NCBI RefSeq assembly: GCF_003097495.1 | Contig: NZ_QEOP01000002.1 | Coordinates: 1,240,001-1,304,000, forward strand | DNA length: 64,000 nucleotides | DNA from: Amnibacterium flavum | Lineage (GTDB): Bacteria > Actinomycetota > Actinomycetes > Actinomycetales > Microbacteriaceae | Direction: 5' to 3' | Shown: piece after piece, positions 649-13,471 of the stretch | How positions within the stretch are numbered: the first letter of the stretch is position 1 | Layout: the number at the start of each line of letters is the position of its first letter | Program-made: the position numbers and the translations under genes | The notes under the pieces: model-generated | Seen by the model: only the letters and a program-made list of their open reading frames with translations | The model's database searches: none | Told to the model about the DNA's origin: nothing

Positions 649-1764
649 TCAGACCTCGCGCTCGTCGGGCCCCACGTACTCGGAGAGGGGCCTGATGAGG
701 GCGTTCGCCTCGAGCTGCTCCATGATGTGCGCGGTCCAGCCCGTGATCCGGGCGGCGACGAAGAGAGGCGTGAACAGCTCGGTCTCGAAACCCATGAGCG
801 CGTAGGCCGGGCCGCTCGGGTAGTCGAGGTTCGGCTTGATCTGCTTGCGGTCCTCCATCGCCGACTCGAGTCGCGTGTAGAGGTCGGCGAGATCGGCCCT
901 GTCGTAGTGCTCGACGAGGGTGTCGAGCGCCGTCTTCATCGTCGGGACCCGCGAATCGCCGTTCTTGTAGACGCGGTGGCCGAATCCCATGATCTTGCGC
1001 TTCTCCGCGAGCGCGGAATCGAGCCATTCCTCCGCTCTGTCGGCCTCGCCGATCTCGTCGAAGACGTGCATGACCGCCTCGTTGGCACCGCCGTGCAGCG
1101 GCCCCTTGAGCGCCCCGATGGCGCCGGTCACCGCCGAGTAGAGGTCGGCCAGCGTCGAGGTGATGACCCGGGCCGCGAAGGTGGAGGCGTTGAACGAGTG
1201 CTCGGCGTAGAGCACCATCGACACCCGGAACGCGTCGACGACGACCGCCGGCGGCACCTCGCCGAATGTCATCCACAGGAAATTGCTCGAATAATCGAGA
1301 TCGTCACGCGGCGCGATCGGCTGCTGACCCCTTCGGCGGCGCTGGATGGACGCCACGACGGTCGGGATCCGGGCGAAGAGGGCGATCGCGCGCTGCTCGT
1401 TGAGAGTCCGGTCGATGTCGCCGCCCTTCTCGAGCAGGGTCGGGTCGAGCGTGCCGAGGGCGCTGACGGCGGTGCGCACGAGGTCCATCGGGTGCGCGGT
1501 GACCGGCAGGGTGTCGAGGACTGCGACGATGCGGTCGTCGAGAGGGCGCAGCGAGCGCTCGAGCGCAACGAAGCCCGCCAGCTCGTCGGGGTTCGGGAGC
1601 TCGCCGTGCCAGAGCAGCCAGGCGACCTCCTCGAACGAGGCGCGTTCGGCCAGCTGCTGGACGGGATAGCCGCGGTAGAGCAGCGAGTTCGTCTCGGGAT
1701 TCACCTTCGAGATCGCGGTGCTGTCGACGACGACACCGGCCAATCCCTTGCGGATCTCAGTCAT
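649..1764 (-). CDS. prpC: 2-methylcitrate synthase (citrate synthase family)
   Basis: A 371-residue citrate-synthase-fold enzyme. It probably condenses propionyl-CoA with oxaloacetate to 2-methylcitrate in the cytosol, the first step of the methylcitrate cycle. Visible motifs are PLHGGANEAV and GFGHRVYKNGDSRV, which carry the two catalytic histidines, and PNLDYPSGPAY near the C-terminus. The length is that of the short PrpC-type enzymes, not of long hexameric citrate synthases. The ATG at 1764 overlaps the prpB stop as ATGA, so the genes are translationally coupled; a longer reading to 2343 runs through prpB and is not used. Its place as third gene of prpDBC favours methylcitrate over citrate synthase. 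Confidence 0.93.
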   Translation of the reverse strand: MTEIRKGLAGVVVDSTAISKVNPETNSLLYRGYPVQQLAERASFEEVAWLLWHGELPNPDELAGFVALERSLRPLDDRIVAVLDTLPVTAHPMDLVRTAVSALGTLDPTLLEKGGDIDRTLNEQRAIALFARIPTVVASIQRRRRGQQPIAPRDDLDYSSNFLWMTFGEVPPAVVVDAFRVSMVLYAEHSFNASTFAARVITSTLADLYSAVTGAIGALKGPLHGGANEAVMHVFDEIGEADRAEEWLDSALAEKRKIMGFGHRVYKNGDSRVPTMKTALDTLVEHYDRADLADLYTRLESAMEDRKQIKPNLDYPSGPAYALMGFETELFTPLFVAARITGWTAHIMEQLEANALIRPLSEYVGPDEREV

Positions 1765-2717
1765 GCCGATTCCTTTCCTGAGGTATCGGACTGCGGGGCG
1801 GCATCGCCCGGAAGACCGGTGGGTTCGAGCGTGAAGTCGAAGATGTCGGCGTCGAAGGCGGTGTAACCCTCGTAGTCGAGCAGGTCGTAGAGCTCGGCCC
1901 TCGTCTGCATCGCGGGCACCTGACTCGCCAGGCTGCCCTCGGCCAGGAGAGCATCGAGCGCCCGGTCGGCGGCCCCCATCGCCAGACGGAGAAGCGAGAC
2001 GGGGTAGATGACGATGTTGATGCCGACGGCCTCGAGCTGCGCCACCGTGAACAGCTCGCTCTTGCCGAACTCGGTCATGTTCGCCAGCACGGGCACATCC
2101 ACAGCAGCTCTGATCGCCTCGAACTCGCCGAGATCGCGCATGGCCTCGGGGAAGATCGCGTCGGCACCGGCGTCGACGAGGGCCTTGGCCCGATCCTTCG
2201 CCCCCTCGAGACCCTCGATCGCGCGGACGTCGGTGCGCGCCATGATCAGCAGGTCGGGATCGCGGCGTGCGTCGACGGCCGCTCTGATGCGCTGCAGGGC
2301 GGTGTCGAGTCCGACGACCTGCTTGCCGTCGAGATGACCGCATCTCTTCGGATTGACCTGGTCCTCGATGTGCAGACCCGAGACGCCGGCGTCCTCGAGG
2401 ATCTGCACCGTGCGTGCGACGTTCATGGGCTCGCCGAAGCCGGTGTCGGCGTCGATGAGCGTCGGCAGGTCGGTCACCCGGGCGATCTGGCCACCGCGTC
2501 CGGCCACTTCCGTGAGCGTGGTCAGGCCGATGTCGGGGAGCCCGAGATCGGCGGACAGGACGGCCCCCGAGATGTAGACGCCCTCGAACCCCTTGCGCTC
2601 GATGAGGCTCGCCGAGAGCGGGTTGAACGCGCCGGGGAACCGCAGGAGCCGACCGCTCGCGAGTTGCGCTCGGAGTGCCGAGCGCTTCCCCGACGCGGAG
2701 ACCTTCGAGTGCAACAT
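1761..2717 (-). CDS. prpB: Methylisocitrate lyase
   Basis: A 318-residue member of the isocitrate lyase/PEP mutase family. It cleaves 2-methylisocitrate to pyruvate and succinate, the last step of the methylcitrate cycle. The active-site loop KRCGH lies at residues 124-128, and DADTGFG at 89-95 supplies the metal-binding aspartates. The ATG at 2717 has a GCAGGAG ribosome binding site three bases upstream. The gene lies 106 bases after prpD and overlaps prpC by four bases. KRCGH, not the KKCGH common in isocitrate lyases, together with the short length and operon context, supports PrpB. Confidence 0.95.
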   Translation of the reverse strand: MLHSKVSASGKRSALRAQLASGRLLRFPGAFNPLSASLIERKGFEGVYISGAVLSADLGLPDIGLTTLTEVAGRGGQIARVTDLPTLIDADTGFGEPMNVARTVQILEDAGVSGLHIEDQVNPKRCGHLDGKQVVGLDTALQRIRAAVDARRDPDLLIMARTDVRAIEGLEGAKDRAKALVDAGADAIFPEAMRDLGEFEAIRAAVDVPVLANMTEFGKSELFTVAQLEAVGINIVIYPVSLLRLAMGAADRALDALLAEGSLASQVPAMQTRAELYDLLDYEGYTAFDADIFDFTLEPTGLPGDAAPQSDTSGKESA

Positions 2718-2823
2718 CAGCTCCTGCTCTCTGCGCAGATCGAGGGGATCCGGCGGCTTCTCAGCCTAATCCTGAGCCCGAGAGCCGGGGCCGACCGCGA
2801 ACTCCCCGCGTCGCCGACACGGG

Positions 2824-4350
2824 TCAGAACAGACCGGTCGGCAGGACGACGCCGTCGTAGAGCCCGGGACGGGCGGTGATAGTGAGCTCCGCCACCTCGG
2901 CGGGCGTGAGCTCGGGGAGGCGCTCGGCGAGCTCCAGGAATCGCTCGATCTCGGTCGGTTCGAGTGCCGGTTCGGCGAGTGCGCGGAACTTCTGCACGTA
3001 GTCCGCGCGGGCGAACGGGCGGGCACCGAGCGGATGGGCGTCGGCCACGGCGATCTCGTCGACGATCCGCGTGCCGTCGGTCAGCTCGATCTCGACTCGA
3101 CCGCCGAACGCCTTCTCACTCGGATCCTCCGAGTGGTAGCGCCGGGTCCACTCGGCGTCCTCGGTGGTGCTGACCTTGCGCCACAGCTCGACGGTATCGG
3201 GGCGCCCCGCGCGCTCGGGCGCGTAGGAGTCGACCTGATGCCACCGGCCGTCCTGGAGGGCGACGGTGAAGATGTAGGGCACCGAATGGTCGAGGGTCTC
3301 TCGGCTGGCGGTGGGGTCGTACTTCTGCGGGTCGCCCGCGCCGGAGCCGATGACGAAGTGCGTGTGGTGCGAGGTGTGCAGCACGATCGATGCGATGTTC
3401 GCCGGATCGCGCAGTTCGGGGTGTTCGGTACCGAGCCGGCGTGCGAGGTCGATCCAGGCCTGAGCCTGGTACTCGGCGGAGTGCTCCTTGGTGTAGCTGT
3501 CGAGGATGGCGCGCTTCGCCTCGCCGCGTGAGGGCAGGGGCACCTCGTAGCGGGCGTCGGGACCGCCGAGCAGCCAGGCGATGACCCCGTCCTCCCCCTC
3601 GTAGATGGGCACCGGGCTGGTCTCGCCTCGCATTGCGCGGTCGACGGCCTCGATCGCCATCTTGCCCGCGAAGGCGGGGGCGTGAGCCTTCCAGCTCGAG
3701 ATCTCGCCCTTGCGGGACTGCCGCGTCGCCGTCGTGGTGTGCAGAGCCTGTCCGACGGCCTGGAAGACGGTCTCGGGGTCGAGGTGGAGCAGCGTGCCGA
3801 TCCCGGCGGCCGCACTGGGACCGAGGTGCGCGACGTGGTCGATCTTGTGCCGATGCAGGCTGATGGCGCGCACGAGGTCGATCTGGATCTCGTAACCGGT
3901 GGCGATGGCGCGCACGAGGTCGGCTCCGCCGCGACCGGTGTGCTGCGCGACCGCGAGGATCGGCGGGATGTTGTCGGCGGGGTGCGAGTACTCGGCGGCG
4001 AGGAACGTGTCGTGGAAGTCCAGCTCGCGCACCGCGACCCCGTTCGCCCACGCCGCCCACTCGGGCGACACCCGAACCGTGGGCGCCTCGCCGAAGACGG
4101 TGGCGCCCGCTCCCCCGGTGCTCGCGGGGTGCGCCAGCGCCTGGGATCTGGCGGCGACGACGGGACGACGGGTGAGCGACGCCGCCGCGACAGCCGCGTT
4201 GTCGATGACGCGATTCACGATCATGTCGGCGACGTCGGCGTCGACCGGGACCGGGTCGACGGCGACCTGGGCTATCGCGGACGCGAGCTGCTGTTCGCGG
4301 GGCAGCTCTTCTTCGCTGCGGTGGGTGCGCACGCGCCAGATCTCGGTCAC
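2824..4350 (-). CDS. prpD: 2-methylcitrate dehydratase (MmgE/PrpD family)
   Basis: A 508-residue MmgE/PrpD-family protein that dehydrates 2-methylcitrate to 2-methyl-cis-aconitate. It begins [20 protein letters not shown], and the core has the family's LDFHDTF and [12 protein letters not shown] motifs near residues 105-125. I choose the GTG at 4350 because AGAGGA lies seven bases upstream; an ATG at 4383 has no ribosome binding site. It is the first gene of the leftward operon prpD-prpB-prpC. No prpR-type regulator is seen, but a tandem 19-bp repeat lies just upstream and could be the control region. Confidence 0.93.
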
Positions 4351-4435
4351 CGGTGTCCTCTCACGATCGGTGCCGTTCGGCACCTGCGTCGACCTCTACT
4401 CTGCTGCATCCCGTGGAGGGCGGACTACTCGAGAC

Positions 4436-4795: not shown

Positions 4796-4855
4796 GAGTA
4801 TGACGCGAGGTCCCGACACGCCAAGTGGGTGACCCTTCGCTATCGTCGAATGATC

Positions 4856-5626
4856 ATGGGGCTGCGGATCACGATCGGCACCCTCCGCCTGCTCGCCGCG
4901 GCGGTGGGAGTCGTCGCGCTCACCGCACGGTTCATCTACGGCCTGGGCTTCCGCAGCTTCGTCTCGGTCGACTTCTTCGGCTACCTGACGATGCAGAGCA
5001 ACATCGCCGCGGTGGTCGTCTTCACCGTCGCGGGCATCGCCGCCGTGCGCGGGCGCCCCGAATCCCGTCTGCTGTCGACGGCGCGGGCGCTCGTGACGTG
5101 CTTCCTCCTCGTCGCCGGCATCGTGTTCGCCATCCTCGTCAGCCAGGCCCCGCTCTTCGGGTACACGATCGAGGTGCCGTGGTCGGACCGGGTTCTGCAC
5201 TTCGTCCTGCCGGCCTACGCGCTCGCCGACTGGCTCATCGCGCCCCGGCGACGCAAGGTGCGCTGGCGGGCGATCCTGTTCGCGGTCGGCTACCCGGTCG
5301 TCTGGGGCATCGTGACGATCATCCGCGGGGAGTTCGTCGGCTGGTACCCGTACTTCTTCCTCGACCCGGCGCAGGCGGGATACCCGGTGCCCTTCATCGT
5401 CTACTCGGCGGCCGCCCTCGCGCTGTTCGCGCTCATCGAGACGGGACTCATCGCCGTGAGCAGGGTCGCGCCGCTCGGTCAGGGGTCACCCCCGGGTGCC
5501 GGCGCACGCCGGGCGACCCTCCGTGCCGGACGCCTGCGGCGGCTCGTGCACCTCAGACGTCGCCGGGGTCTCGTCGGCGGCGACGCTGTCAGGACTCGGC
5601 GAGGAAGGGCATCAGGCTCGAGCTGA
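4856..5626 (+). CDS. Pr6Pr family membrane protein
   Basis: A roughly 256-residue integral membrane protein with about six hydrophobic helices and the Pr6Pr family pattern (RFIYGLG, FGYLTMQSNIAAV, HFVLPAYALADWL, YPYFFLD). No biochemical function is established for bacterial members that I can name. The start is ATG 4856 or ATG 4850. From about residue 205 the membrane domain gives way to some 50 Arg/Gly-rich residues with no family look, and the end overlaps the convergent amine oxidase gene by 38 bases. The tail may be read-through after loss of the original stop. Confidence 0.75.
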   Translation: MGLRITIGTLRLLAAAVGVVALTARFIYGLGFRSFVSVDFFGYLTMQSNIAAVVVFTVAGIAAVRGRPESRLLSTARALVTCFLLVAGIVFAILVSQAPLFGYTIEVPWSDRVLHFVLPAYALADWLIAPRRRKVRWRAILFAVGYPVVWGIVTIIRGEFVGWYPYFFLDPAQAGYPVPFIVYSAAALALFALIETGLIAVSRVAPLGQGSPPGAGARRATLRAGRLRRLVHLRRRRGLVGGDAVRTRRGRASGSS

Positions 5627-6998
5627 GCTCGACCAGCACAGCATCGTCGTCGAGCCCGGCCAGAACAGCCGACTGACTGCCCGACAGCGCTCCGACGAGC
5701 ACGGCCTCGCCGGTGAGGGGTTCGAGGTTGACCCATTCCGTGATCGCCAGGTCACTGCCGATCACCGACCAGCGCACCGCGTCGGTATCCCAGAACTTCT
5801 CGTCGAAGCGCAGCCAGATCGTCTCGGTCGTGCCGAAGCCGAGGTCGGCGATCGCGGCACGGTGCTCGAACGGCAGGGCGGGGTCGAAGGTGATGCCCTG
5901 CTGCTTGAGAACACCGAGCGGCACCGTCACGATCGCGCGGTCGACACTGATTGATTCACCGGTCGCGAGCCGGATGCTGACCCCGTTGTCGCCGTAGCTC
6001 AGCGCCGTCACGGCGCTCGACAGCCAGACGTCCGTACCGTCGAGCTGATCGGTGATGTAGCGCGCGTAGCCGCCGAGAACCCGCTCCTCGGTGGGCGCGG
6101 CGGGAAGCGCGACCCCGTACCACGAGGAGATCTCGTCGGGGTAGGCACCGCGGTCGATGGCGATGTGCTCGAGGAGCGCGAGGTCGATGCGGTCTCGTGC
6201 GGTCGGCGGATCGCCGGAGTCGTCGGCATCGCCGGCACCGGACCCGTCGAGCGACTCGGTGATGGTCGAGTCCTCGGGGCGGTCGGCGGCCCAGTCGACG
6301 GCCGAGGTGATCGCCGCATCGCCGGAGTCCGATGGGTCGACGTCGGTGCCGTCGGCGAGGCGGAGCAGGCGGTCGCGCTCGAGGGCGACCGTCTCGATGC
6401 CGAGGGACGCCAGCCGCAGCGACACCGCCGAGCCGGATTCGGGTGCCCACGCGGCACCGAGTTCGACGGGGACCGGCCAGTCCTCGTCGTCGAGGGTGGC
6501 GATGCGGCCTCCGATGCGGTCGCGGGCCTCGATCACCGTGACGGTGAGCCCGCTGTCGACGAGCCGGGACGCCGCGGCGGCACCCGCCGCGCCGGCGCCG
6601 ATGATGGCGATGCGCTCACCCTCGGTGCTGTAGGCGAGGACCTCGCCGGCGGCGCTGAGACCCGACTGCGCGGCACCGTCGACGGTTGCGGGCTGCTCGA
6701 TCGAGGTCGCCTCTCCGGCGAAGAAGATGCGCCCGTCGAGGTGTTTGCCGAGGACCGCGCGCTGCTCGGGCGACGCGCCAGCTGCGACGAAGCTGTGACT
6801 GCCACGGGAGAACTCGTCTCCGAGCCAGTCGCTGCGGACGATGGCGGTCGGAGCGGGAACGGGGCCGACGGGATCGGGCGTCGGAGCGACCGTTCGAGTG
6901 GGAGTCGGCTTGGGAGCCTCGGGCGTGCAGGCCGTCAGAACGAGCACCGAGAAGCCTGTGGCGGCGCCGGTGAGGAAGGTGCGACGGGAGAAGCTCAT
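5589..6998 (-). CDS. Secreted flavin amine oxidase, circularly permuted
   Basis: A 469-residue FAD-dependent amine oxidase exported as a lipoprotein: twin-arginine motif SRRTFLTG at residues 4-11 and lipobox LTAC with Cys24. Residues 56-121 (SDWLGDEFSRGSHSF..., FFAGEATS, PATVDGAAQSG) are the block that normally ends flavin monoamine oxidases. Only after it comes the Rossmann motif IAIIGAGAAGAAAASRL at 130-146 with VIEARDRIGGR, the usual N-terminus. The protein then runs through the substrate domain and stops at 'LVELSSSLMPFLAES', where a normal enzyme would continue into SDW. The family is clear; the order is a circular permutation. The substrate is unknown. A hairpin separates it from the cold-shock gene upstream. 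Confidence 0.85.
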   Translation of the reverse strand: MSFSRRTFLTGAATGFSVLVLTACTPEAPKPTPTRTVAPTPDPVGPVPAPTAIVRSDWLGDEFSRGSHSFVAAGASPEQRAVLGKHLDGRIFFAGEATSIEQPATVDGAAQSGLSAAGEVLAYSTEGERIAIIGAGAAGAAAASRLVDSGLTVTVIEARDRIGGRIATLDDEDWPVPVELGAAWAPESGSAVSLRLASLGIETVALERDRLLRLADGTDVDPSDSGDAAITSAVDWAADRPEDSTITESLDGSGAGDADDSGDPPTARDRIDLALLEHIAIDRGAYPDEISSWYGVALPAAPTEERVLGGYARYITDQLDGTDVWLSSAVTALSYGDNGVSIRLATGESISVDRAIVTVPLGVLKQQGITFDPALPFEHRAAIADLGFGTTETIWLRFDEKFWDTDAVRWSVIGSDLAITEWVNLEPLTGEAVLVGALSGSQSAVLAGLDDDAVLVELSSSLMPFLAES

Positions 6999-10930: not shown

Positions 10931-13471
10931 ATGGCCGCCGAGTTGACGCTGGGTGCCGAAGAAGAGCTGCACCTGATCGACCTCGAGAGCCTGCACCTGT
11001 CGGGCCGTGCGCCCCAGCTGCTCTCGAAGCTTCCCGGTGAGTTCTATTCGGCCGAGATACAACGCACCACCGTTGAGACGAACACCGCCGTCGTGAGGAC
11101 TCTGTCCGAGCTGCGCGCCGAGCTGCTGCGTCTGCGCAAGGGGATCATCGACATCGCGGATCCCGCCGGGCTGGGCATCGCCGCCGTCGGCACGGCGCCG
11201 CGGTCGAAGTTCGCCGACTTCGAGCTGACGACGACCGGTCGTTACGGCCGCATGCAGGAGCAGTACCGGGTACTCGTCGACGAGCAGCTCATCTGCGGAA
11301 CGCAGATCCACGTCGGGGTCTCCGACCGGGAGCTCGCCGTCGACATCGCCCAGCGGGTCTCCCGCGACCTGCCCGCCCTGCTCGCCCTCTCGGCGAGCTC
11401 CCCGTTCTGGAACGGCCACGACACCGGCTACTCGAGCATCAGAACCCTCGTCTGGCAGCGCTGGCCCAGCGCCGGAGCGACGGGCCCGATGGGCTCGGCG
11501 GCCGAGTACGACGAGCTGCTCGACGACCTCATCGCGAGCGGCGTGATCGCCGACGCGAAGATGGCCTATTTCGATGTGCGCCCGTCATCCCACGCGCCCA
11601 CCCTCGAACTGCGGGTCTGCGACGCGTGCCCTCTCGTCGACGACGCGGTCCTGATCGCTGGCCTATTCCGCGCCTCCGTGCGTTCCGCCGAACTCGACGT
11701 CGAAGCCGGTCGCACCTACCGCCCCCTCCCCGCACCTCTTCATCGCGCAGCGATCTGGCAGGCGGCGCGGGGAGGTCTCGCCGGAGAGCTGCTCGAGGGC
11801 GCCCAGCATCCCCGTCCCACTCCGGCGGCGACCGCGGTGCGGAACCTCGTCGGCCGGCTCCGACCCCAGCTGGAGGAGCTCGGCGACTGGGACGACGTCA
11901 ACGAGCTGGTCGAGCAGGTGCTGGCGCGCGGCAATTCCGCCGACCGGCAGCGCGCCGCCTTCGCGGAACGCGGCCAGCTCGACGACGTCATGCGCCTGGT
12001 GATCGACGAGACGCAGGGTCTCGCAGGCGGCCCCACCCCATCGGGCCCCGCACTGCGCGGCTACCCGGCCCGAGCGGGCGACGAGGCGATCGGGCTCGGC
12101 TCCCAACCGCGTCCCGCCTATCGCGCGATCACCGAGTTCTTCCGCGAGTCCGCCCCGAGCACCATCGCCACCCGCCAGAAACGGCGCGACGAGTGGGCGG
12201 AGCAGAACGGGGTCGCCTTCCGCGTCGGGGGCGTGGATCGTCCGTTCGAGGTCGACCTCGTTCCCCGCGTGATCACCGACTACGAATGGTCGGAGCTGTC
12301 CGCCGGCCTCGGCCAGCGAGCCCGCGCCATCGAGCTGTTCCTGCGCGATGTGTATTCCGATGCGCGCGTGCTGAACGACGGCATCATCCCCGCGGATCAG
12401 GTGCACACCGTGCCGGGTTGGCGCGACGAGGCGAGCCGCCTGCCCGCCGACGCCGTGCGCGCCCCGATCATCGGGTTCGATCTGGTGCGGAACGAGTTCG
12501 GCGGCTGGCGCGTGCTCGAGGACAACGTGCGGAATCCGAGCGGTATCGCCTACGGGGTCGCCGCACGGGAGCTGATGGACGCCGTCATGCCCGACCTCCC
12601 GCGACCCGACGGTCTCGTCGACCCGGCGCGCGCGTTCGCCGAACTGCGGGAGACCCTCGCGGCCGGCGGTCGCGACGGCACCGTCGTCCTGCTGACGAGC
12701 GGGCGCGAGAGCGCCGCCTGGTACGAGCACCGACGGCTGGCCGATGAGGCCGACCTCGTGCTCGCCGAGGCGAAGGACCTCGATATGCGCGACGGCCGCG
12801 TCGTCCTCCGCGACTCCGGGGAGCAGGTGGCGACGCTCTACCTCCGTCTGGACGGCGAACTGGCCGACCTCACCGGGTCCGACGGTCGGATGATCGGTGC
12901 CGAGATCATCGACATCGCGGCGGCGGGAGCCGTGTTCCTCGCGAACGCGCCGGGCAACGGCGTCGCCGACGACAAGGCCCTCTACTGCTACGTGCCCGAG
13001 CTCATCGCCTACTACCTCAAGGAGCGGCCGCTTCTCGAATCCGTCCCCACCTATCGCACCAGCGATGCAGCCGAACGGCGGATCGTGCTCGAGAGGGTGG
13101 GCGAGCTCGTCACCAAACCGGTCGACGGCTACGGCGGGAACGGCGTGCTGATCGGTCCTTCGGCGAGCGCCGCGGCCGTCGCGTCCCGTCGAGCCGAGAT
13201 CGCCGACAATCCGGGCAACTGGGTGGCTCAGGAGGTCGTGGCGCTGTCGTCGCATCCGACGCTCTCGGGCGGACGGCTCGAGCCGAGGCACGTCGACCTG
13301 AGGGTCTTCGCGTTCCTGACGGGAACCGGCGAGGGCGATGTGAGGCTCGCGGATCTCGCGCTGACGCGGATGGCGGGGCCGGGCAGTCTCGTGGTCAATT
13401 CGTCGCGGGGCGGCGGGGCGAAGGACACCTGGATCGTCGACAACGGCCGGAAGGCCGAAACGGGAGGCTGA
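10931..13471 (+). CDS. YbdK-type carboxylate-amine ligase fused to circularly permuted ATP-grasp ligase
   Basis: An 846-residue two-enzyme fusion. Residues 1 to about 370 are a YbdK/GCS2-family carboxylate-amine ligase (TLGAEEELHLID, CGTQIHVGV, LELRVCDACP), related to glutamate-cysteine ligase. From about residue 380 it is a circularly permuted type 2 ATP-grasp enzyme: DLVPRVITDYEWSEL, GQRARAIELFLRDVY, DLVRNEFGGWRVLEDNVRNPSG, KPVDGYGGNGVLIGPSA. Both halves form amide or peptide bonds with ATP. The next genes are an amidotransferase one base later and a peptidase. This suggests synthesis of a short peptide-like metabolite; the substrates are unknown. Confidence 0.88.
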   Translation: MAAELTLGAEEELHLIDLESLHLSGRAPQLLSKLPGEFYSAEIQRTTVETNTAVVRTLSELRAELLRLRKGIIDIADPAGLGIAAVGTAPRSKFADFELTTTGRYGRMQEQYRVLVDEQLICGTQIHVGVSDRELAVDIAQRVSRDLPALLALSASSPFWNGHDTGYSSIRTLVWQRWPSAGATGPMGSAAEYDELLDDLIASGVIADAKMAYFDVRPSSHAPTLELRVCDACPLVDDAVLIAGLFRASVRSAELDVEAGRTYRPLPAPLHRAAIWQAARGGLAGELLEGAQHPRPTPAATAVRNLVGRLRPQLEELGDWDDVNELVEQVLARGNSADRQRAAFAERGQLDDVMRLVIDETQGLAGGPTPSGPALRGYPARAGDEAIGLGSQPRPAYRAITEFFRESAPSTIATRQKRRDEWAEQNGVAFRVGGVDRPFEVDLVPRVITDYEWSELSAGLGQRARAIELFLRDVYSDARVLNDGIIPADQVHTVPGWRDEASRLPADAVRAPIIGFDLVRNEFGGWRVLEDNVRNPSGIAYGVAARELMDAVMPDLPRPDGLVDPARAFAELRETLAAGGRDGTVVLLTSGRESAAWYEHRRLADEADLVLAEAKDLDMRDGRVVLRDSGEQVATLYLRLDGELADLTGSDGRMIGAEIIDIAAAGAVFLANAPGNGVADDKALYCYVPELIAYYLKERPLLESVPTYRTSDAAERRIVLERVGELVTKPVDGYGGNGVLIGPSASAAAVASRRAEIADNPGNWVAQEVVALSSHPTLSGGRLEPRHVDLRVFAFLTGTGEGDVRLADLALTRMAGPGSLVVNSSRGGGAKDTWIVDNGRKAETGG

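Follow-up and report, generated by a model that had tools for sequence, protein, structure and literature searches.

Proteins of the PF01593 (Amino_oxidase) family are ordinarily colinear, with a Rossmann segment followed by a substrate domain and a block that closes the chain, and in the normal chain the closing block and the Rossmann ends belong to one domain that binds flavin adenine dinucleotide (FAD). The closest known counterpart of the protein described here is the amine oxidase domain of LSD1/KDM1 (PF01593; structures 4gu0 and 2iw5). Our protein is encoded in a 64,000-nucleotide stretch of the Amnibacterium flavum genome (assembly GCF_003097495.1, contig NZ_QEOP01000002.1, positions 1,240,001 to 1,304,000; hereafter, the window), and its residues 47–464 align with LSD1 in two significant pieces, including the Rossmann, FAD-block and substrate-domain motifs common to both. 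However, the block that closes the LSD1B chain (residues 700–775) opens the window protein (residues 47–122), and the positions that we take to hold the flavin-N5 lysine and the tyrosine of the GSYS motif in LSD1 are occupied by threonine and histidine, respectively. A twin-arginine translocation (Tat) signal ahead of an FAD amine oxidoreductase, as in the window protein, is known from dehydrogenases of the NicA2/Pnao type and from periplasmic oxidases, and the former provide a precedent for superfamily members that do not use O2 (PMC12224317).

Natural circular permutation has been reported for other cofactor-binding proteins. DNA and RNA methyltransferases have a Rossmann-like domain that occurs in permuted forms, and the rearrangement hardly affects how the domain is built or how it binds its cofactor (PMC1282579), although these are unrelated S-adenosylmethionine-dependent enzymes and serve as a precedent only. 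Multi-flavinylated proteins contain circularly permuted FMN-bind domains, another case of an extracytosolic flavoprotein with a permuted domain, but the domain type is different and the flavin mononucleotide is bound covalently (PMC11334425). A natural permutation within the superfamily to which MAO, LSD1 and polyamine oxidases belong was not found described in the literature searched, in which subscription journals were mostly not covered, and neither 'permut' nor 'circular' occurs in the main text of PMC12224317. The permutation within this superfamily is thus provisionally considered to be novel.

The gene is an open reading frame (ORF) on the minus strand of the window (5589–6998) that starts with ATG, contains no internal stops and encodes 469 amino acids. 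PF01593, a ubiquitous family with matches in all 14 control genomes, recognizes the protein with 170 bits (cut-off, 19.8) in three stretches. In the genome profile search, the first piece along the protein corresponds to profile positions 369–443 (window 6636–6860), the second to positions 2–66 (6387–6587) and the third to positions 206–358 (5622–6068), so that the protein opens with what is C-terminal in the profile. The score above the family cut-off and the presence of both the N-terminal FAD motif and the closing block (profile 369–443 at residues ~47–121) place the protein within PF01593, but given that the order is closing block, Rossmann segment and substrate domain, it is best filed as a permuted offshoot of the family rather than as a regular member. 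The parts of the gene are as follows:

5589–6998, minus strand: whole permuted PF01593 ORF (469 amino acids plus stop), from the ORF list and the PF01593 match
6927–6998, minus strand: Tat-type signal and lipobox, residues 1–24 (MSFSRRTFL...LTAC), read by eye, with the twin arginine aligned in 26 permuted proteins
6855–6926, minus strand: Pro/Thr-rich tether, residues 25–48, from the sequence
6633–6854, minus strand: moved C-terminal FAD block of PF01593, residues 49–122 (W58, D61, GSHSF, FFAGEAT, ATVDGAAQSG), from profile, phmmer and conservation
6795–6797, minus strand: His68 codon, at the site of a tyrosine in 67 of 73 normal-order relatives, from the alignment
6615–6632, minus strand: junction linker between the old C-terminal end and the Rossmann strand, residues 123–128, from phmmer, alignment and conservation
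6381–6614, minus strand: Rossmann FAD-binding segment (GAGAAG ... EARDRIGGR), residues 129–206, from profile, phmmer and alignment
6078–6380, minus strand: variable part of the substrate domain, residues 207–307, with a single column out of 100 reaching 90% conservation
5601–6077, minus strand: second half of the PF01593 domain, now C-terminal, residues 308–466, from profile and phmmer
5820–5822, minus strand: Thr393 codon, presumably the site of the near-universal flavin-N5 lysine (alignment; column identity by comparison with LSD1)

Comparison with LSD1B (4gu0) using phmmer shows how tight the rearrangement is. Chain residues 700–775 (of 776) align with residues 47–122 of the window protein (independent E-value, 2e-7), and chain residues 332–693 with residues 123–464 (3.6e-22), leaving out six chain residues at the break and one at the old C-terminus. 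In other words, the last ~75 residues of the ordinary domain have been placed in front, a few residues join the old C-terminus to the old N-terminus, and the chain stops just short of the site where the closing block formerly began. An initial annotation, made from the sequence without database searches, had proposed exactly this layout, namely, that residues 56–121 are the closing block of PF01593 placed ahead of the Rossmann motif, that the protein ends where an ordinary enzyme enters that block and that both ends are otherwise complete, pointing to permutation rather than loss; the profile and LSD1B alignments agree with it on all three counts. A second copy of the block at the true end, which would have spoken against a permutation, is absent, the protein ending at residue 469. 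The N-terminus was likewise correctly recognized as that of a Tat lipoprotein, with a twin arginine at residues 5–6 and an LTAC lipobox up to Cys24, both read by eye.

The permuted order is widespread in the Microbacteriaceae. In an initial protein search, 54 of 60 genomes, including that of A. flavum, yielded some match, and full-length colinear matches were found in the window's genus and in six further genera of the same family. Using a junction profile built from 23 of the 34 permuted sequences available at that stage, we identified a contiguous permuted junction (E ≤ 7.8e-44) in 100 of the 299 family genomes searched, that of A. flavum included, representing 30 of 85 genera. After these 100 comes a partial match (1.1e-31), with G020 containing a partial junction (positions 5–111), and later matches span one half only. 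Conservation of the contiguous junction across so many genomes excludes chance and contradicts an assembly rearrangement, another condition under which the permutation proposed in the initial annotation would have failed, while bearing out its expectation of Microbacteriaceae homologues with the same order. We accordingly rejected an artefact of assembly or annotation, which has next to no probability given that the same order also is found in single-contig genomes of the family, such as G014, G029 and G065, and recurs in other phyla. Two copies depart from an intact gene: in a genome of the same genus (L018; G006:C1:3067565-3068964), the gene lies in two frames near residues 83–87, owing to a frameshift or a sequencing error, and the copy in G030 contains an internal stop.

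The architecture extends beyond the Microbacteriaceae, further than the initial annotation had guessed. A collection search returned 282 stretches matching a pattern, of which 226 encode a relative, and 80 loci were kept. In a first classification, the block as well as the Rossmann segment was present in 39 permuted and 63 normal-order ORFs, albeit with duplicates, the window's own gene being counted four times. In the final classification, for which profiles were used, further loci added, identical ORFs removed and ORFs missing a segment dropped, 61 permuted and 73 normal-order ORFs contain all three segments, near-duplicates such as the Okeania set still being included; the normal-order ORFs were retrieved as matches to the window protein or the junction profile and hence are near relatives rather than a sample of the superfamily. 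Outside the family, searches were centred on genomes picked for having the gene; these centre genomes are included in the counts, which are lower bounds because the initial screen is restricted to the best-ranking candidates of each genome. Among 247 genomes of the class of an Acidimicrobiaceae metagenome-assembled genome (MAG), the junction was detected in eight (≤4.3e-42; in one of these, G1215, it starts at position 21, at a contig end) and, more weakly, in G1251 (1.3e-34). It was further found in 5 of 398 genomes from the phylum of a Cognatishimia MAG (Pseudomonadota), in 1 of 292 from the phylum of Okeania (Cyanobacteriota), this being the centre genome itself, and in 8 of 296 from the window's phylum, four of them of the same family; two of the matches from the phylum search, G1358 and G1455, share contig places with G1043 and G1075 from the class search and probably represent the same genomes. 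No junction was found at 1e-30 in 166 and 164 genomes from the phyla of Caldilineaceae and Planctomycetota MAGs, respectively, but with no known positive there, this result shows nothing. Seven plasmid records contain a match, and the four that were classified (one of four from Synechocystis, two from Haloarcula and one from Nostoc) are all of normal order. No match was obtained among phage records, nine IMG/VR loci each cover only part of the junction query, and for the best 60 of the 187 junction-profile matches among solved structures, the best stretch lies essentially in one half. The shuffled layout is kept across numerous relatives and also in some distantly related bacteria, which suggests that this large enzyme family can accommodate a natural rearrangement of the chain.

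The moved block is as strongly conserved as the Rossmann part, with 17 of 74 and 16 of 78 columns, respectively, being at least 90% conserved, compared to none of the 11 columns of the junction linker. Such a pattern would be expected of a block that continues to serve the FAD site and of a linker that acts only as a connector, although it falls short of proof of docking. In the 26 aligned permuted sequences, W58, G95, E96 and G113 of the block are invariant, as are the residues of the GxGxxG and E...R.GGR motifs (G134, G136, G139, E157, R161, G163, G164 and R165). Furthermore, Nei–Gojobori estimates of the ratio of nonsynonymous to synonymous substitution rates (dN/dS), obtained with our own script for 12 hand-chosen pairs, are all below 1 (0.07–0.42), indicating purifying selection: 0.07–0.12 for five Agreia pairs, 0.13 for L022/L047, 0.17 for L056/L059, 0.23–0.30 for four Okeania-type pairs and 0.42 for the window protein and G002. 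Thus, the analysis shows a closing block ahead of the Rossmann strand, joined by a short linker, with the chain ending at the old block start, in a conserved arrangement under purifying selection. In the Agreia proteins L042–L045, a Pro/Ser/Ala-rich insertion of ~20–25 residues interrupts the substrate half at the C-terminus, immediately ahead of the conserved W.NL motif.

Most of the permuted proteins inspected carry a twin-arginine signal ahead of the block, although the invariance of the twin arginine in the alignment of 26 is partly by construction, most starts having been picked upstream of it. The signal of L172 is unclear, and the sequences of L018 and L170 end before the signal region. 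Nor is Tat export confined to permuted proteins, because a twin arginine followed by a hydrophobic stretch is present in 47 of 73 normal-order relatives according to a crude rule that also passes some spurious GC-rich stretches, for instance, in L026 and L087. In two permuted proteins of Pseudomonadota, L162 and L163, no Tat signal is visible before the block, and these might be cytosolic forms.

One study of the superfamily describes the flavin-N5 lysine as nearly universal, extending to nearly all of the dehydrogenases identified in that study, and cites it as key to the reaction with O2; the lowest O2 reactivity tested was that with glutamate in its place (PMC12224317). The role of this lysine is also treated in PMC8009472. 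In the window protein, the corresponding residue is Thr393. We assign this site to the LGxGxxxK column on the basis of the alignment and of a comparison with LSD1, and take the tyrosine of GSYS, replaced by His68, to be an aromatic wall residue. Accordingly, the window protein has neither of the two residues expected of an O2-using flavin amine oxidase. All 73 normal-order relatives have a basic residue at the lysine site (K in 58, R in 15), and so do nearly all of the 26 permuted proteins from outside the family (K in 24, R and H in one each; L178 and L179 probably are repeats of L164 and L165). Among the 42 permuted proteins of Microbacteriaceae, lysine is found in 15 and arginine in 3, the residue is non-basic in 23 and a gap occurs in one. 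Of the normal-order relatives, 67 of 73 have the tyrosine, as do 25 of the 26 permuted proteins from outside the family, compared to only 3 of 41 scored permuted Microbacteriaceae proteins. In the latter family, the lysine site is variously occupied by T, V, A, S, L, Q or R, and the tyrosine site by F, H, A, T, S, Q, N or I, and on a quick tree, the basic/non-basic state of the lysine site changes six times among 35 labelled rows. In our sample, therefore, the loss of these residues is concentrated in the Microbacteriaceae and is repeated there; given that the permuted proteins from outside the family mostly keep Lys/Arg and Tyr, it is not tied to the permutation itself. Hence, of the 'flavin amine oxidase' in the initial annotation, the family assignment stands, whereas amine oxidase function has become doubtful.

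We consider it likely that the gene encodes a naturally circularly permuted PF01593 member that is exported by Tat, tethered as a lipoprotein, binds FAD and acts as an oxidoreductase at the cell surface, with the N5 lysine lost in this genus. In such a protein, the old C-terminal helix would continue straight into Rossmann strand 1, and the moved block would fold back intramolecularly onto the same FAD. The loop that connects the substrate domain with the FAD block would harbour the new termini, and because of this, the lipid tether would exit at this hinge rather than at the Rossmann strand. With the lysine lost, an enzyme slow with O2, either of the dehydrogenase type or repurposed, appears likelier than an amine oxidase producing H2O2. 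Two observations weigh against this assignment, in addition to the fact that freely inferred trees do not unite all permuted proteins. NicA2-type dehydrogenases, unlike the window protein, keep the lysine and are encoded beside a cytochrome c gene (PMC12224317), and no cytochrome c is found among the eight window proteins scanned besides the permuted one (Pr6Pr, cold-shock and FKBP proteins, a small unmatched ORF and four more distant genes), the rest of the window and genome having not been searched for one. Moreover, loss of the lysine and the tyrosine could equally mean that catalysis has been lost.

This last possibility, under which the fold would be retained in the Microbacteriaceae solely as the scaffold of a catalytically dead lipoprotein binding FAD or another ligand, is the main rival, even if an unlikely one. 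The erosion of both sites to many different letters, with the six state changes noted above, indeed looks like relaxed catalytic constraint; however, the invariant FAD motifs and low dN/dS values argue for retained function, and 18 of 41 scored members of the family still have a basic residue at the lysine site. In our reading of the sequences, a changed oxidative half-reaction is favoured. That the protein is simply a permuted amine or polyamine oxidase of the ordinary, O2-using kind appears improbable: among solved structures, LSD1 proteins match best and spermine and polyamine oxidases next, and 25 of 26 permuted relatives outside the family retain Lys/Arg and as many the Tyr, but Thr393 and His68 of the window protein argue against it, as do the ~200-fold and ~100-fold lower kcat of the K305M and K305S variants of MAO-A (PMC8009472). 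Slightly less probable still is a domain-swapped dimer, with the moved block supplying the missing part of the FAD site in the neighbouring subunit instead of in its own; the linker between the block and the Rossmann segment is short, which would fit a swap, yet, as both ends are part of one FAD-binding domain in the normal chain, a short linker is enough for the intramolecular arrangement.

Circular permutations usually arise through tandem duplication followed by trimming at both ends. No two-block intermediate of this kind was detected, all 134 classified ORFs lacking a second block copy or a second Rossmann segment. Whether the permutation emerged several times independently or once, followed by divergence and transfer, is close to evenly balanced, with several origins falling just short of an even prospect. 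On a quick tree of 121 rows, the permuted/normal label changes eight times, and starred branches force at least two changes. A careful tree of 69 hand-picked rows, with segments put in normal order and L172 left out, implies seven changes, and the permuted rows form one clade in 0% of 200 bootstrap trees. Conversely, the starred branches of the careful tree force one change only, the best tree with all 32 permuted rows together is not rejected (approximately unbiased test, p-AU 0.134), deep branches are poorly supported, some rows are long, and the position of the break is roughly constant across the lineages compared, although the fold may dictate that. A single origin is thus neither shown nor rejected. 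Within the careful tree, 21 permuted rows form a subgroup with 95/89 support that comprises 16 Microbacteriaceae, three members of the Acidimicrobiia class and L162/L163.

As evidence tested by evolution, a conserved permuted branch indicates that the fold accepts new termini at the boundary of substrate domain and FAD block, and it could guide the engineering of biocatalysts in this superfamily. The branch also bears on the interplay of folding order, FAD loading and Tat export, and the repeated loss of the N5 lysine within it offers natural variants for the question of O2 versus other electron acceptors.

The gene lies tail-to-tail with that of a membrane protein, their ORFs overlapping by 38 bases:

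4829–5626, plus strand: convergent neighbour, membrane protein of the Pr6Pr family (NF038065, 117 bits), start codon uncertain

A convergent Pr6Pr homologue adjoins the permuted gene in 36 of 39 permuted loci of Microbacteriaceae, five of the 36 having supplied queries; the flanks at the three misses measure ~0.67 kb in two cases and 32 bases in the third. None was found at the 22 permuted loci outside the family, 11 of which have less than 0.9 kb of flank. Among 30 carriers and 30 non-carriers of the permuted gene, all picked by hand, a Pr6Pr match lies within 2.3 kb of the permuted gene in 28 of the carriers, which harbour 70 Pr6Pr copies compared to 38 in the non-carriers, although 27 of the latter have a Pr6Pr gene as well. 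The two genes thus tend to come and go together, but conserved gene order within the family may suffice as the cause. In two loci, G033:C2 and G106:C1, Pr6Pr genes flank the permuted gene on both sides. Outside the Microbacteriaceae, ten ORFs from four loci and two from L048 revealed no common theme in the gene neighbourhood.

The name 'Pr6Pr' was not found in the literature searched. Thr54 and His124 are invariant in all 36 aligned Pr6Pr neighbours, and hydrolases of the AIG1/ADTRP group have a Thr–His dyad (PMC13360439). The Pfam profile Far-17a_AIG1 scores the window's Pr6Pr protein at 16.3 bits, below the cut-off of 24.5, and does not place it in that family. Matching Thr54 and His124 to the dyad is an assumption, and the likeness to these hydrolases is a lead only. 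A bolder scenario would combine these threads into a hitherto unrecognised permuted branch spanning at least three phyla, with a hinge tether and repeated lysine loss in the Microbacteriaceae, where the protein would work at the cell surface as an FAD dehydrogenase or redox sensor, with the AIG1-like membrane hydrolase encoded tail-to-tail as its partner; taken as a whole, we regard it as speculative and rather unlikely.

Elsewhere in the window, a gene on the plus strand (10931–13471) encodes an 846-residue fusion of a GCS2-type carboxylate–amine ligase (PF04107, residues 7–282) and a circularly permuted ATP-grasp domain (PF14403, residues 445–815), directly followed by an asparagine synthase gene. 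A cluster resembling the methylcitrate cycle (649–4383, minus strand) comprises a PrpD-type gene (PF03972), a PrpB-type gene (PEP_mutase/ICL) and an ORF that, by eye, resembles citrate synthase.

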